From an uncultured bacterium (lineage in GTDB: Bacteria; Cyanobacteriota; Vampirovibrionia; Gastranaerophilales; Gastranaerophilaceae), in assembly GCA_902777855.1 (NCBI GenBank), contig CACYVN010000011.1, positions 1 through 35,679 of the forward strand: a DNA stretch of 35,679 nt, read 5' to 3'. The notes beneath the pieces are model-generated. The model had not been told where the DNA came from and searched no databases. It saw nothing but the letters and a program-made list of their open reading frames with translations. The translations under genes and the position numbers were made by a program. This document shows, piece by piece, positions 21,252 to 26,561 of the stretch. How positions within the stretch are numbered: position 1 is the stretch's first letter; each line of letters opens with the position of its first letter.

Positions 21252-21280
21252 TTGAAATAATTAAAAAAATGTTGTAGAAT
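21252..21280 (+). promoter_or_regulatory. Sigma70-type promoter of the HD-GYP operon
   Basis: TTGAAA (21252-21257) and TAGAAT (21275-21280) are 17 nt apart. The leader is about 12 nt and carries AGAGGA. Confidence 0.6.
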
Positions 21281-21298: not shown

Positions 21299-23011
21299 AT
21301 GACAGTAGAAGTAAGCGATATAAAGAGATACATAAAAGACGGGCTTAATTTTATAGAAAATAAAGACTACCATTGCGCAAAAAACGTTGTTAATCAGGCT
21401 TTTGAGATTGCACAAAAAACAAATAACATTTCAGGGATTTCAATATGTCTGAATCTCAATGCTTTTTTGAACTATTCGATAGACGGCTCTGACAACTTTT
21501 CCACTATGGAAGACGGAGCATTTATGGCCGAAAAGTCGCAAAATATTACAGCATTGCTAATATCAGAATTGGTAAGAGGCAATGTAAATTTTGCCGAAAA
21601 TAATAAAGAAATTGCCCTGATTCATTATAATAACGCACTTAAATTATCCGCAAAAGAAGACGAATACTCATTGGCAGATTTAATTAATACAAGAATTAAA
21701 CAACTTCAAAACGGTATGGATTATTCGCTTCCGACTCAAACCGATCCTTTGGTTTCTCTGGTAAAAATAAGCCGTTCAATTACAGCACTAACAGATATTG
21801 ACGAACTTTTAAAAGTTATCGCAGAAGAAACACGAAATGCAATGCAGGCTGACAGATGTACCGTATTCCTTTGGGATAAAGACAGTAATGAATTATGGTC
21901 TAAAGTCGCTTTAGGTGTCGAAAATAAAGAAATCAGATTTCCTGCGGATAAAGGTCTTGCAGGATACGTAGTTCAGACTGGTGAAACTCTTAATATCACG
22001 GATGCATACTCAGATTCAAGATTTAATCCTGAAGTTGATAAAAATACGGGTTATCGGACAAAAACTATTCTTTGCATGCCCATTATGAATAATAATCACG
22101 AAATTATCGGGGCTTTTCAGGTATTAAACAAGATTGATGGTATTTTTACAAAGAATGACGAAGATTTACTTATAGCAATAGGGGGCAGTGCAAGTATTGC
22201 ATTAGAAAATGCCCAGTTATTTGATCAGCAGTTGCAAATGTATCGGGAACAAAAGCTTTTGTTCGAAAGTTTTATTGATACCTTAGCAACTTCAGTAGAT
22301 GCAAGAGATAAGATTACTGCAGGTCATTCAACAAGAGTTAAGCTTTATTCGTCACTAATTGCCGATGAACTTGGTCTGAGTCCAAAAGACAAAAATCTGC
22401 TTGAAAAAGCTGCAACGCTGCATGACATCGGCAAAATCGGTATTAGGGATTCTGTTCTTCAAAAAGAAGGTAAATTAACAGATGAGGAATATAAACACAT
22501 ACAGGAACATGTGCGAATTACACACAACATTCTGAACAGACTATATATGTCCCCCGATTTCAGAATTATAACTGAGATGGCATCGTCTCATCACGAGAAA
22601 TACGACGGCTCAGGGTATTACAGACATCTTAAAGGGGAAGAAATAACTCTTGGCGGACGTATTCTTGCTGTTGCGGATGTATTTGATGCGATTACCTCAA
22701 AAAGACATTATCGAGACAAAATGCCGATTAAGAATGTTCTCGGAATTATTTCGGATGGTGCAGGCTCTCATTTTGACCCGAATCTTGTAGATACCTTTCT
22801 GAAAACTCCCCTCGATAAGGTAACTAACGTATTGCTCTCCGATACCCAACATCAAATATTACCGGAGGACAAACAGATATTGGAAACACACAATCTTTAC
22901 GATATCAAAAACTATACCTGCTCGGAGCAGTTGAGTGAGGAAGAACAAAAAACTCTTGATTTATTTAATAAATATTATTTGAATCAGTTTGGAGGAAATG
23001 ATGAAGCATAA
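21299..23011 (+). CDS. GAF / HD-GYP signalling phosphodiesterase
   Basis: A 570-residue cytoplasmic protein. Residues 1-130 are helical and TPR-like. A GAF sensor domain spans about 155-305 (DRCTVFLWD, GLAGYVVQTGE, MPIMNNNHEIIGAFQVLNK), and an HD-GYP domain about 325-525. HD-GYP enzymes hydrolyse cyclic di-GMP. Metal ligands are visible: H375-D376 in LHDIGK and H431-H432-E433. The signature reads HHEKYDGSGYY, with tyrosine 441 where proline is canonical. AGAGGA precedes the ATG. It heads an operon with overlapping downstream genes for a secreted TPR protein and a response regulator. Activity is likely but not proven, given the GYY variant. Confidence 0.9.
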   Translation: MTVEVSDIKRYIKDGLNFIENKDYHCAKNVVNQAFEIAQKTNNISGISICLNLNAFLNYSIDGSDNFSTMEDGAFMAEKSQNITALLISELVRGNVNFAENNKEIALIHYNNALKLSAKEDEYSLADLINTRIKQLQNGMDYSLPTQTDPLVSLVKISRSITALTDIDELLKVIAEETRNAMQADRCTVFLWDKDSNELWSKVALGVENKEIRFPADKGLAGYVVQTGETLNITDAYSDSRFNPEVDKNTGYRTKTILCMPIMNNNHEIIGAFQVLNKIDGIFTKNDEDLLIAIGGSASIALENAQLFDQQLQMYREQKLLFESFIDTLATSVDARDKITAGHSTRVKLYSSLIADELGLSPKDKNLLEKAATLHDIGKIGIRDSVLQKEGKLTDEEYKHIQEHVRITHNILNRLYMSPDFRIITEMASSHHEKYDGSGYYRHLKGEEITLGGRILAVADVFDAITSKRHYRDKMPIKNVLGIISDGAGSHFDPNLVDTFLKTPLDKVTNVLLSDTQHQILPEDKQILETHNLYDIKNYTCSEQLSEEEQKTLDLFNKYYLNQFGGNDEA

Positions 23012-24542
23012 AATAATACTTTCCTTATCTGTAATGCTTTTATCTGCTCCGGCTTTCGCCCTCGATATGAAAGGAATTGCGCCAATAAATCCGCTTGACA
23101 ATAAACCGGGGACATATCAAAAAGAGGTTGTTATTCCGTCTTTTGAGCTAAAAAAAGCTACATTAACAAAAAATTCTATCAAAAATCAATATACAATAGC
23201 GATGGATAAATTTACAAAAAGCAATGTCCGTTCTGCCTATGCAGATTTTAGTATATTGATTGATACAGTTACTCCAAATGACTATATTTATATGCAATTT
23301 TCACAGGACATGGCATCGGTCGGTTTTTTTAATCTCTCAGAACTTGCAATGACAAAAATTCAGGATGAAAGCCTTTCTTCACAGTTTGAAGACGATGTAA
23401 AAACATTTTATTTCCCGTCAGAAAGATTAGAAAAAAAAGACCAGATATATCTTGCCGAATTGTATTCAAACATGCGTTACAATGATCAATCAAGAGAAGC
23501 GACAGCAGAACTTTCAAAGCAAACAGCATTATTAAATGATTCGGACTATGCAAATTATGTTGCGGCATTCGGAGCAATGAAAAGCGGAGATTTTAAACAG
23601 GCAAAAAAATATATTACTGCTGCCACTGATAAGAATCCCAAAAATATAAATTATAAACGTCTTAAAGCTGAAATTCTTGCTCAGAGCGATAATCCCAAAG
23701 AAGCAATGTCCGTTTTCAATTCTTTTGACACTAATAATTTTAAAACCGTAGTTTTTGACGAGGAAATAGATGCTTCAAAACAGTATGTTCTTTATAAATC
23801 TGTCAAAAATGATTATTTAAAAAAATATCATCTGGCGCACTATTACTACGATAACGGAGAATATAACAAAGCAATCGGAGTTCTTCAAACTTCAATCTCG
23901 GGGAAAAAATCCATAAATAAAGATGTTTATGCCCTGTATGCAATGGTTTATTACGATATGAAAGAATTTGAAAAGGCACAAAATTATGCGCAAAAAGCAC
24001 TCGATATCGACAAATCGAATCCTCAGAGTCTTTTAATTTTAGGGAATATAGCATATCGTGATAAAGATTACCAAACTGCGATGAGATATTATAGAAAAAT
24101 TCAAGGCAAATTCAAAGATTTTTCAGCCGAACTTGCACTTGCGCAGATATATTTAAATCTTAAAGAGATACAAAAAGCAAAAGATGTTTATTCTAAAATA
24201 TTAAGAATTTCATCAAAATCTTTTATGGCTTATTACCAAATGGCATTATTAGAACCAGACAGAGAGTTTGAATACCTGAAAAAAGCAATATCAATAAAGC
24301 CTGATTTTAAAGATGCATGGATAGACTTAGCAAGAATATCTTTGAAAAAAGAAAATATTGATAAGGCAATCTCTTATCTGCGTGTAGCAAAATACATTGA
24401 TGACAGTGATTATCGTTATTATTACTATCTCGGGCTTATTCTTAAAGATAAGGGAATGCCTATGCAGGCAAAGGAAAATTTTGAACACAGTTTAAAATTA
24501 AACCCGGATTATGATTTACCTAAAAAGGAACTGAATATATGA
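23001..24542 (+). CDS. Exported TPR-repeat protein
   Basis: A 513-residue protein with a signal peptide (MKHKIILSLSVMLLSAPAFA) and at least six tetratricopeptide-like units, clearest from about residue 200 onward (EFEKAQNYAQKALDIDKSNP, DYQTAMRYYRKI, EIQKAKDVYSKIL, PMQAKENFEHSLKLNPDY). I expect a periplasmic scaffold for protein interactions. GGAGG at 22991-22995 fits the second ATG (23001) better than the TTG at 22989 or the ATG at 22998. The start overlaps the HD-GYP stop by 11 bases, and its end overlaps the response regulator start as ATGA. Its role in the signalling operon is unknown. Confidence 0.85.
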   Translation: MKHKIILSLSVMLLSAPAFALDMKGIAPINPLDNKPGTYQKEVVIPSFELKKATLTKNSIKNQYTIAMDKFTKSNVRSAYADFSILIDTVTPNDYIYMQFSQDMASVGFFNLSELAMTKIQDESLSSQFEDDVKTFYFPSERLEKKDQIYLAELYSNMRYNDQSREATAELSKQTALLNDSDYANYVAAFGAMKSGDFKQAKKYITAATDKNPKNINYKRLKAEILAQSDNPKEAMSVFNSFDTNNFKTVVFDEEIDASKQYVLYKSVKNDYLKKYHLAHYYYDNGEYNKAIGVLQTSISGKKSINKDVYALYAMVYYDMKEFEKAQNYAQKALDIDKSNPQSLLILGNIAYRDKDYQTAMRYYRKIQGKFKDFSAELALAQIYLNLKEIQKAKDVYSKILRISSKSFMAYYQMALLEPDREFEYLKKAISIKPDFKDAWIDLARISLKKENIDKAISYLRVAKYIDDSDYRYYYYLGLILKDKGMPMQAKENFEHSLKLNPDYDLPKKELNI

Positions 24543-25186
24543 AAAAGAATCTCTTAATAGTTGAAGACCACGAGTTAACACGCTTCGGATTAAAAACTAC
24601 ATTTGAAGATGTTGATTATATAGATGTAATTTATGAAGCATCCAGCGGAGAAGATGCAATTGAAATATTTAAAAATAACAAAATAGATGTTGTTATTATG
24701 GATTTGGGCTTGCCAAAAATGAATGGAATAGAAACCACTCAGGCTATTCATTCTGTTGATTCTGATGCAAAAATTGTTGTATTAACTTCGCATAATGACG
24801 AAAAAGAGGTATTAAACAGCCTGAAAGCAGGAGCTAACGCATATTGTTCAAAAGAAATTAATCTGCAAAGACTTGTTCAGGTTGTTCAATCGGTATCAGA
24901 AGGTGCAGCCTGGTTTGATCCGAGCATTGCTCATATTGTCTTACAGGCGACAACATCATCCAAAATTGATGAAAAAGATATAAATTATAAAAATTACGAT
25001 TTGACTACAAGAGAAGCTCAGATACTGAAACTTATGACTGAGGGCTACAGTAATATGGAAATTGCCCAACATCTTGTTATAAGTGTAAATACAACAAAAG
25101 CTCACGTCGCAAGTATTCTGCAAAAACTTGAAGTAGATGACAGGTTACAGGCGGCACTGAAAGCATTGAAATACAAAATTGTATAA
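24539..25186 (+). CDS. NarL/FixJ-type response regulator
   Basis: A 215-residue two-domain regulator. The receiver domain (1-120) has the acidic pair ED, phosphoacceptor D55 in MDLGLPKMNG, T in VLTSH and K105 in CSKE. The LuxR-type helix-turn-helix follows (LTTREAQILKLMTEGYSNME, VNTTKAHVASILQKL). It is coupled to the TPR gene by an ATGA overlap. No histidine kinase is encoded nearby, so its partner is elsewhere or its receiver is controlled in another way. Its targets are unknown. Confidence 0.93.
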   Translation: MKKNLLIVEDHELTRFGLKTTFEDVDYIDVIYEASSGEDAIEIFKNNKIDVVIMDLGLPKMNGIETTQAIHSVDSDAKIVVLTSHNDEKEVLNSLKAGANAYCSKEINLQRLVQVVQSVSEGAAWFDPSIAHIVLQATTSSKIDEKDINYKNYDLTTREAQILKLMTEGYSNMEIAQHLVISVNTTKAHVASILQKLEVDDRLQAALKALKYKIV

Positions 25187-25218
25187 ACCACTTGACTATA
25201 TACCGCAGGATGTTTTAT

Positions 25219-25224
25219 TATAAT
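25219..25224 (+). promoter_or_regulatory. Possible -10 box of the pentapeptide-dapB operon
   Basis: TATAAT is preceded by TTGACT at 25192-25197, but the 21-nt spacing is longer than usual. A start near 25231 gives a leader of about 37 nt. Confidence 0.35.
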
Positions 25225-25267
25225 TTCCGTACATGTGCATAAATATATTTATCTTAAGGAGAAAAGC

Positions 25268-25807
25268 ATGTTAGATTATACAAAAGATGAATTATTGTCT
25301 TTAATAGAAAGAAGCCCCGAGCAGTTTAACGAATGGAAAAAAGACAAAGAAGACATAGATTTAAGCGAAGTCGATTTTTCTAATATTGTACTTAAAGAAG
25401 TCGATTTCAGCGGAGCGGACTTAAATTCAAGTTCTTTTGCTGACAGTGATTTATCCTTGATTAATTTCAGTAATGCGGATTTGACATCTGTTGATTTTAC
25501 AAGAGCTTCCGTTGTCGAATGTGACTTTACGGATGCACTTTTAACCGGTGCAGATTGCAGCTATGCACAAATGACTTATTGCACATTCGCAGGAACAGAT
25601 ATGGCAGGATGTATTTTGGCAGAAGCAGATTTATCAAATTCGGATTTTTCGGCTTCTGAAAATTTAGCATCAGCAAGATATGATAATGATACCCAATGGC
25701 CGGATACGGATATGCTTCCTGAAGATTTTGACAGTGAATGTGCTGATGATTTATCGGCTCTTAAAGACGAAGAAGATGCCCCTATTATGAGCGACGGAGA
25801 ATACTAA
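25268..25807 (+). CDS. Pentapeptide-repeat protein
   Basis: A 179-residue protein with about 20 pentapeptide repeats between residues 35 and 130 (VDFSGADLNSSSFADSDLS, NADLTSVDFTRAS), expected to form a right-handed quadrilateral beta-helix. A short N-terminal helix region precedes the repeats and an acidic tail follows (DTDMLPEDFDSECADDLSAL). No signal peptide, so cytoplasmic. AAGGAG fits the ATG at 25268; the GTG at 25235 is too far upstream. One base separates it from dapB, so they are cotranscribed. The function is unknown: some relatives mimic DNA and bind gyrase, but nothing here proves that. Confidence 0.88.
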   Translation: MLDYTKDELLSLIERSPEQFNEWKKDKEDIDLSEVDFSNIVLKEVDFSGADLNSSSFADSDLSLINFSNADLTSVDFTRASVVECDFTDALLTGADCSYAQMTYCTFAGTDMAGCILAEADLSNSDFSASENLASARYDNDTQWPDTDMLPEDFDSECADDLSALKDEEDAPIMSDGEY

Positions 25808-25808
25808 T

Positions 25809-26561
25809 ATGATAAAAGTAGCGGTGTGCGGAGCAAATGGCAGAATGGGAAAAGAAGTCTGCCAAACAGTTTTGAACGACAATACAACAGAGCTTGCAGC
25901 AAAAATTGATATATGCGGAGATAATGTATATCCCTCAATAGAACAAGCACACAAAGAGACTGATATTGATGTTCTTGTTGATTTTACGCAACCTTCTTCT
26001 ATTTTTGAAAACGCAAAATATTGTCTTAAAAACGGGATAAAGATTGTTATAGGAACAACAGGTTTAACTGACAATCAAATAGCGGAATTGCAGAAATTAT
26101 CCTGTGAAAATAATACAGGGTGTCTTATCGCTCCAAATTTTTCTACGGGTGCAGTTTTAATGATGATGTTTGCGCAGATGGCTGCAAAATATTTTGATAA
26201 TGCCGAAATAATTGAGCTTCATCACAATCAGAAAAAAGATGCACCATCAGGAACAGCAATAAAAACTGCACTTATGATGTCTGAGTCAAAAAATAGTTTC
26301 AAAACAGGGAATTGCCCTGAAACGGAAACCATTGAAGGAGCAAGAGGAGGAACATCCTATTCGGATATACAAATTCATTCTGTCAGAATGCCCGGATTTA
26401 TGGCTTCTCAGGAAGTTATTTTTGGTTCTAACGGTCAGGTTTTAAAAATCCGTCACGATTCAACGGACAGAAAATGCTATATGGACGGTGTTATGCTTGC
26501 CGTTAAACATGTTTTTGACAAAAATGATTTTGTTTACGGACTTGATAACCTTTTAAAATAG
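25809..26561 (+). CDS. dapB: 4-hydroxy-tetrahydrodipicolinate reductase
   Basis: A 250-residue enzyme of the lysine/meso-DAP pathway. The nucleotide-binding VAVCGANGRMGKEV, the substrate motif ELHHNQKKDAPSGTA and VRMPGFMASQEVIFG are present. The length is slightly short of 265-270 but complete. It supplies meso-DAP for the MurE at 17906. It is convergent with speE with a 31-bp gap. Confidence 0.96.
   Translation: MIKVAVCGANGRMGKEVCQTVLNDNTTELAAKIDICGDNVYPSIEQAHKETDIDVLVDFTQPSSIFENAKYCLKNGIKIVIGTTGLTDNQIAELQKLSCENNTGCLIAPNFSTGAVLMMMFAQMAAKYFDNAEIIELHHNQKKDAPSGTAIKTALMMSESKNSFKTGNCPETETIEGARGGTSYSDIQIHSVRMPGFMASQEVIFGSNGQVLKIRHDSTDRKCYMDGVMLAVKHVFDKNDFVYGLDNLLK

Follow-up and report, generated by a model that had tools for sequence, protein, structure and literature searches.

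We analysed a window of 35,679 nt (positions 1 to 35,679 of contig CACYVN010000011.1, assembly GCA_902777855.1) from an uncultured bacterium of the family Gastranaerophilaceae. The source genome is 1.94 Mb and 99.5% complete; the G+C content of the window is 35%. Between positions 21299 and 25186 lie three genes encoding an HD-type phosphodiesterase (the HD protein), an exported tetratricopeptide repeat (TPR) protein and a response regulator, RR1 (Table 1). The HD and TPR genes overlap by 11 nt, and the TPR and RR1 genes share ATGA. These overlaps, reported in an earlier note on this DNA, are borne out by the open reading frame (ORF) coordinates. That note also took them to indicate a fixed ratio of products, which overlap alone is insufficient to show. 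Genes on the same strand run on past 25186, with a pentapeptide-repeat protein gene (PP) followed by dapB.

The longest ORF for the TPR gene begins with TTG at 22989. The ATG at 23001 has GGAGGA just 5' to it and is likely to be the start codon, giving a protein of 513 residues and the 11-nt overlap. Pfam matched HD_5 (E-value 7.8e-35) and GAF (2.6e-19) in the HD protein, TPR repeats in the 23001-24542 product, and Response_reg (7.6e-29) and GerE (1.4e-16) in RR1. An Rfam scan of the window at gathering scores gave no RNA element match.

Table 1. Genes and promoter-like elements at the locus (coordinates within the window).
Feature	Coordinates	Strand	Details
HD-type (HD-GYP-like, GYY) phosphodiesterase gene	21299..23011	+	570 aa; domain scan and structure model; helical TPR-like N-terminus ~1-137, GAF 166-302 with NKFDE motif, HD_5 333-496
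Exported TPR solenoid protein gene	23001..24542	+	513 aa; N-terminal signal sequence
RR1, NarL/LuxR-type response regulator gene	24539..25186	+	215 aa; receiver and GerE
PP, pentapeptide-repeat protein gene	25268..25807	+	179 aa; closes family-wide operon
dapB (4-hydroxy-tetrahydrodipicolinate reductase)	25809..26561	+	1 nt past PP; TIGR00036 1.1e-73
Promoter-like element upstream of HD	21252..21280	+	10/12 consensus matches; scan total at chance level
Promoter-like match TTGACT-18-TATTAT	25192..25221	+	between RR1 and PP, where many relatives have RR2; consensus match only

Gene order in the genus and family

The natural unit is HD-TPR-RR1-RR2-PP, where RR2 is a second response regulator gene, because this full order is found across further genera. 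Hence, the set of three described in the earlier note belongs to a five-gene operon. Within the genus, HD and TPR matches were present and adjacent in all 36 genomes. RR1 was next after the TPR gene in 35; in the other (L097) the contig breaks off within the TPR gene. RR1 was followed by RR2 in 19 genomes, by PP in 13 and by unrelated genes in one, and three contigs ended there. A second genus-level set, the best 80 of 87 named genome records, overlaps with the 36 relatives. Here RR1 was followed by RR2 (56 records), directly by PP (20), by a contig end (three) or by unrelated genes (one). The clade of the window is among those without RR2, and has a gap (25187-25267) between RR1 and PP. Among named records, the closest that contain the TPR gene are metagenome genomes from rumen, deer and other gut sources.

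The spacing between the TPR gene and RR1 was -4 in all 34 genus relatives measured, a split TPR gene being left out, and in 77 of the 78 measured among the best 80 named records. Thus, the spacing is not due to chance. Upstream neighbours vary: a penicillin-binding protein and a Mur ligase are encoded there in the clade of the window, and a zinc-ribbon gene lies there in many others. The unit stays constant while the flanking genes change. The trio, whose conservation the earlier note had proposed to check, is contiguous in all genus relatives with a long enough contig. The split TPR gene belongs to one genome (L023, L108, L142), where an internal TAA divides it into two frames, through either assembly error or decay; RR1, RR2 and PP still follow in order. 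We also considered dapB as a functional part of the operon. It trails PP in the genus, but not in the 25 loci from other genera described below, and was rejected.

Across the family, an RR1 search with a cut-off of 1e-85 found matches in 65 of 117 genomes and 23 of 41 genera. From these other genera we took 25 loci of 21 genera, picked for a strong RR1 match. The trio was contiguous in 22 loci and, by RR1 search coordinates, in one more (L238); the other two were cut by contig ends. RR2 was present in 23 of the 25 and PP in 24 (at L228 beyond a 685-nt gap), and all five genes were present in 18 of the 21 genera. The TPR-RR1 spacing was -4 at 11 of the 23 loci measured and between -56 and +8 at the rest; the ORF starts of these loci were uncurated and some are misplaced (spacings such as -98 or -56). 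Many family members carry a divergent gene of ~228 codons just upstream of the HD gene (e.g. L223:7999-8685). The single copy scanned encodes a glycosyltransferase of family 2, which may point to surface polysaccharide.

The HD enzyme and the exported TPR protein

The best solved relative of the HD protein by sequence is the Persephonella marina GAF-HD-GYP protein PmGH (PDB 4MCW/4MDZ/4ME4; 4mcw, 1.5e-77, residues 154-506). PmGH was also ranked first in a fold search (E 1.6e-21), with TM-scores of only 0.33/0.48, and the next folds include GAF domains of PDE2A, PDE5A, CyaB2, PDE10A and Lcd1. Both proteins have a GAF domain, a long helix and an HD-GYP-type domain, and share all metal ligands except one. 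The window protein differs in having isoleucine for E185, GYY for GYP and an extra helical, TPR-like N-terminus.

We aligned 133 HD sequences: 114 come from family members and the other 19 from elsewhere, including one from a different order. Some genomes are represented twice; 98 sequences, the window's included, are distinct by their C-terminal 250 residues. The ligands H343, H375, D376, H404, H431, H432 and D460, as well as the catalytic K379, are invariant in all 133. So are Tyr440 (the tyrosine of GYP), Arg469 and Arg472, at positions that in PmGH touch the substrate (besides the tyrosine, an Arg and a Lys/Arg position). The second catalytic residue, D337 (PmGH D183), is invariant in the 28 sequences compared. 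The position of PmGH E185, the eighth ligand in the trinuclear E/D-T-G subgroup, is isoleucine in 132 of 133 sequences and leucine in one. By excerpts of two papers (PMC8177086, PMC4159591), this substitution suggests a dinuclear site.

The proline of GYP is present in none of the 133 sequences. The position reads tyrosine in 108, including the window protein, phenylalanine in 16, cysteine in eight and histidine in one. The window's genome has four further HD matches, two of which do read GYP. In the portion available of a review, every active HD-GYP protein has the GYP motif, which is tied to substrate recognition and GGDEF contact (PMC8177086). For PmGH, the accessible text of PMC4159591 reports that alanine mutants of each GYP residue stayed active and were barely affected. 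Since metal and substrate residues are kept, and since those mutants were barely affected, the HD protein is likely to be catalytically active. The label of c-di-GMP hydrolase, given in the earlier note, is likely from the active site (seven metal ligands and K379), while the GYP signature is missing.

The protein might instead have ceased to be a c-di-GMP hydrolase, acting on another nucleotide (3'3'-cGAMP or pGpG) or serving as a ligand-controlled binding protein. The loss of GYP from all members and the replaced E185 ligand would fit this, as would the aspartate of DGxGY, which is asparagine in 2 of the 114 family sequences and in 8 of the 19 others. The structure model is also least certain at the GYY loop. 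However, the invariant metal ligands, K379, Tyr440, Arg469, Arg472 and D337 weigh against it, and we consider this alternative distinctly unlikely.

The NKFDE motif of the GAF domain is almost invariant (N in 132 of 133 sequences; K, F, D and E in all). Partial texts of two papers describe this motif as the mark that sets cyclic-nucleotide-binding GAF domains apart from others (PMC11977230, PMC4411481). We infer that the GAF domain binds cAMP or cGMP. Whereas the motif is complete in the window protein, PmGH is without its last residue, as read off the alignment. The genome also has seven GGDEF matches, two PilZ matches and one PF00211 cyclase. This sole PF00211 match, a 667-aa ORF (L196:1471-3474), is a candidate source of the GAF ligand.

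The N-terminal 137 residues of the HD protein were modelled with high confidence as helix pairs. Pfam matched no TPR in this part, and the model is in line with the TPR arrays of longer relatives. The overall pTM is 0.46 and pLDDT falls below 50 at residues 435-444, the GYY loop. Hence, neither the domain placement nor the loop can be trusted. No 19-residue window above 1.6 on the Kyte-Doolittle scale occurs in the HD protein, RR1 or the pentapeptide protein, and the HD protein is predicted to be cytoplasmic.

Conversely, the TPR protein is predicted to be exported through an N-terminal signal sequence. Its only 19-residue windows above 1.6 start at residues 3-5, and the stretch ends in APAFA-LD. 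The export signal proposed earlier for this protein is therefore present in the sequence. The model has ~35 low-confidence residues after the signal, followed by an all-helical TPR solenoid (mean pLDDT 83). Fold searches returned generic TPR superhelices only, with low TM-scores. The best NCBIfam matches were PrsT and PilW, and all matches were below cut-offs. A phage search gave no match, and a PHROGs search gave one PHROG of unknown function.

Response regulators and promoter-like elements

The receiver residues E9, D10, D55, T83 and K105 of RR1 are kept in all 116 sequences (79 distinct), and a GerE domain is present. Thus, RR1 has the receiver and GerE of NarL/FixJ response regulators, and it matches the NarL model at 1.2e-41. 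It differs from them in that its scores stay under the curated cut-offs of all the best 25 of 108 NCBIfam models, and in the lack of a HisKA_3 kinase in the genome. RR2 also combines a receiver with GerE (two scanned); its phospho-acceptor aspartate is replaced by glutamate in 8 of 77 sequences (58 distinct).

HisKA_3 is the kinase class usually paired with NarL-type regulators. A HisKA_3 search of the window's genome gave no match, and 7 of 14 control genomes were positive. We scanned ten HATPase_c proteins, two further matches above the cut-off and one below it being left out. Nine matched HisKA (one below cut-off) and one was GyrB. The earlier description of RR1 as a regulator without a kinase agrees with this: there is no kinase beside the gene and no HisKA_3 in the genome. 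A dedicated kinase for RR1 was sought, and no partner can be named, because several HisKA kinases have no regulator match close by.

The promoter-like element upstream of the HD gene ends in TTGTAGAAT (21272-21280), which corresponds to a conserved -10-like box. The conserved motif begins ~30 nt before the HD start codon. Among 77 distinct upstream strings, 50 were within three mismatches of a 16-nt consensus drawn from the same strings, compared with 5 of 385 block shuffles; the window's own string has four mismatches. An RR1 operator was considered here, since strong enrichment was seen upstream of the HD gene for ATTGTACAAT, which resembles a palindrome; we read it instead as a promoter element. 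The motif begins ~30 nt before the start codon, its TAnAAT half varies as a -10 box does, and TTGTANAAT is in excess throughout the window. It occurs 12 times against 4.6 expected, a count reached in none of 100 shuffles (sites e.g. 5403, 6210, 14183 and 21272). It is probably a lineage-typical -10 promoter element.

Two modules, the reading of the operon and known systems

At the level of the order we sampled 22 genomes from six other families (labelled f2 to f7), applying match cut-offs for HD and TPR. The two genes were neighbours in 11 genomes, of families f2 and f3, lying within 90 nt of each other in nine and separated by 526 and 816 nt in two. One genome had HD only, one TPR only and two neither. 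RR1 sits apart from this HD-TPR module, in a second module RR1-RR2-PP. Thus the trio, though not scattered in close relatives, is so in other families of the order. RR2 followed RR1 at 8 of 20 fetched loci, from families f2, f3, f4 and f5, and f7 without PP; RR2 and PP were both present at 6. One of the remaining loci ends after RR1 and 11 hold weaker matches (45-52%), perhaps paralogues. In three genomes of one f3 genus (L051, L056, L200), the RR1-RR2-PP module is convergent with the TPR gene, unlike the arrangement in the window. That two arrangements unite the same two modules is, on the gene order of these genomes, the best sign of a functional tie; a single union followed by inversion, instead of two joinings, is possible.

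Complete HD proteins of the other families have ~850-880 residues, and the two scanned have long TPR N-termini. The TPR proteins there are mostly ~1000 residues long (775 in f7) and carry Transglut_core; that of L053 has 536 residues, with the domain not covered. The most hydrophobic stretch begins within the first 40 residues in 14 of 16, L055 being an exception and L115 cut. Of the 15 sequences covering the domain, 13 have all three residues of the Cys-His-Asp triad; L060 (f6) lacks Cys, and L057 (f7) lacks Cys and His. Families f2-f5 thus have exported proteins that join a transglutaminase core with an intact triad to a TPR half, and the HD phosphodiesterase gene adjoins in f2 and f3. The C-terminal TPR half of these proteins (L046, L047, L051) aligns with the window TPR protein at 24-30% identity, and the HD gene is their neighbour in 11 of 22 genomes, as in the window. 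The difference is Transglut_core, which had no match in the window TPR protein or the window's genome. The 36 genus relatives yielded a single match above cut-off, in G011, and a weak one in G010.

We tentatively favour, as quite possible, a reading in which an enzyme of second-messenger turnover, a transcription factor and a scaffold in the envelope are co-expressed from one transcription unit, the enzyme being a predicted cyclic-dinucleotide phosphodiesterase gated by a cyclic mononucleotide. The GAF domain would bind cAMP or cGMP from the PF00211 cyclase and would switch the dinuclear HD site via the long linker helix. That site would linearise c-di-GMP (or 3'3'-cGAMP), for which the GGDEF proteins would be the source. 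The exported solenoid would act as an envelope scaffold, the non-enzymatic counterpart of the exported transglutaminase-TPR protein. RR1, phosphorylated by a distant HisKA-type kinase, would control genes for the surface or envelope; in relatives, RR2 would add a second input. With the unit on, scaffold and regulator would be produced jointly, and the cyclic-dinucleotide level would drop at the same time. It is most economical to suppose that co-expression, not contact across the membrane, links the proteins. The three may be directly coupled, and a link of envelope state to gene control, as the earlier note suggested, is possible.

Several observations weigh against this reading. No RR1 match at 1e-85 was found in 52 of 117 family genomes, weaker copies lying outside that search, and HD and TPR are apart in 7 of the 22 order-level genomes. 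The promoter-like site before PP suggests that part of the unit could be expressed alone. Contact between the HD and TPR proteins is unlikely, because the enzyme is predicted to be cytoplasmic and the TPR protein exported. The motifs GYY, GYF, GYC or GYH stand in all members against the rule for active HD-GYP proteins as worded in the review excerpt (PMC8177086). The whole-protein pTM of 0.46 leaves GAF-to-HD switching with no structural support from the model.

Some of these observations would be expected if the genes were co-regulated and mechanistically separate, sharing a promoter since each has a role in surface adaptation. The enzyme would then act on the cell-wide c-di-GMP pool, the TPR protein in an envelope assembly and RR1 on an unrelated regulon. 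The two separable modules of other families, the predicted difference in compartment between enzyme and scaffold, and the promoter-like site before the pentapeptide gene are all consistent with this. However, the 4-nt overlap of the TPR gene and RR1 is nearly invariant in the genus and the order is kept in 21 further genera. This points to selection for tight joint expression, which alone does not imply interaction. We regard separate functions as possible, if somewhat improbable.

The co-expressed unit that we favour may be extended further. It would then be a circuit of five genes, so far undescribed, that leads from envelope to transcription in gut Gastranaerophilales. Its HD phosphodiesterase, gated by cAMP or cGMP and bearing a GY[Y/F] specificity loop, would couple mono- to dinucleotide signalling. 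Translational coupling would tie this enzyme to the scaffold, an exported relative of a periplasmic transglutaminase, and one or two response regulators without a neighbouring or HisKA_3 kinase would be made with it. Taken as a whole, this proposal is rather doubtful.

For the non-photosynthetic relatives of cyanobacteria that live in the gut, published work on second-messenger signalling seems sparse. Among the matches listed in literature searches, which mostly do not extend to subscription journals, no title or abstract opening concerned this operon. HD-GYP together with Melainabacteria gave none, and c-di-GMP with Melainabacteria gave single mentions of the group. The operon offers a family-wide entry point, through its predicted dinucleotide phosphodiesterase gated by cyclic mononucleotides. 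In addition, ~100 distinct natural sequences in which GYP is replaced and the metal site kept would make the role of GYP directly testable.

Two described systems resemble parts of the operon. In the available portion of its description, rcbAB of Vibrio vulnificus encodes a TPR protein and a TPR-GGDEF enzyme with a TPR-mediated interaction at the flagellar pole (PMC12282931). As in the window, a TPR protein is paired in an operon with a TPR-bearing c-di-GMP enzyme. The rcbAB enzyme is a cyclase, whereas the operon of the window has a degrading enzyme and differs further by its exported partner and its regulator genes. The different compartments predicted for the two window proteins argue against a TPR-TPR contact of the rcbAB type, within one compartment. 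The second system is Bd1971 of Bdellovibrio, a cAMP-sensing EAL phosphodiesterase for which cAMP control is shown, according to an extract of PMC6717892. The likeness would be a domain sensing cyclic mononucleotides that switches a c-di-GMP phosphodiesterase, although cAMP control is only predicted for the window enzyme. The sensor and catalytic domains differ, being CRP-like and EAL in Bd1971 and GAF and HD in the window enzyme. Each part of the operon is of a known kind; the combination of genes, the loop reading GYY or GYF and the loss of the transglutaminase domain are new to us.

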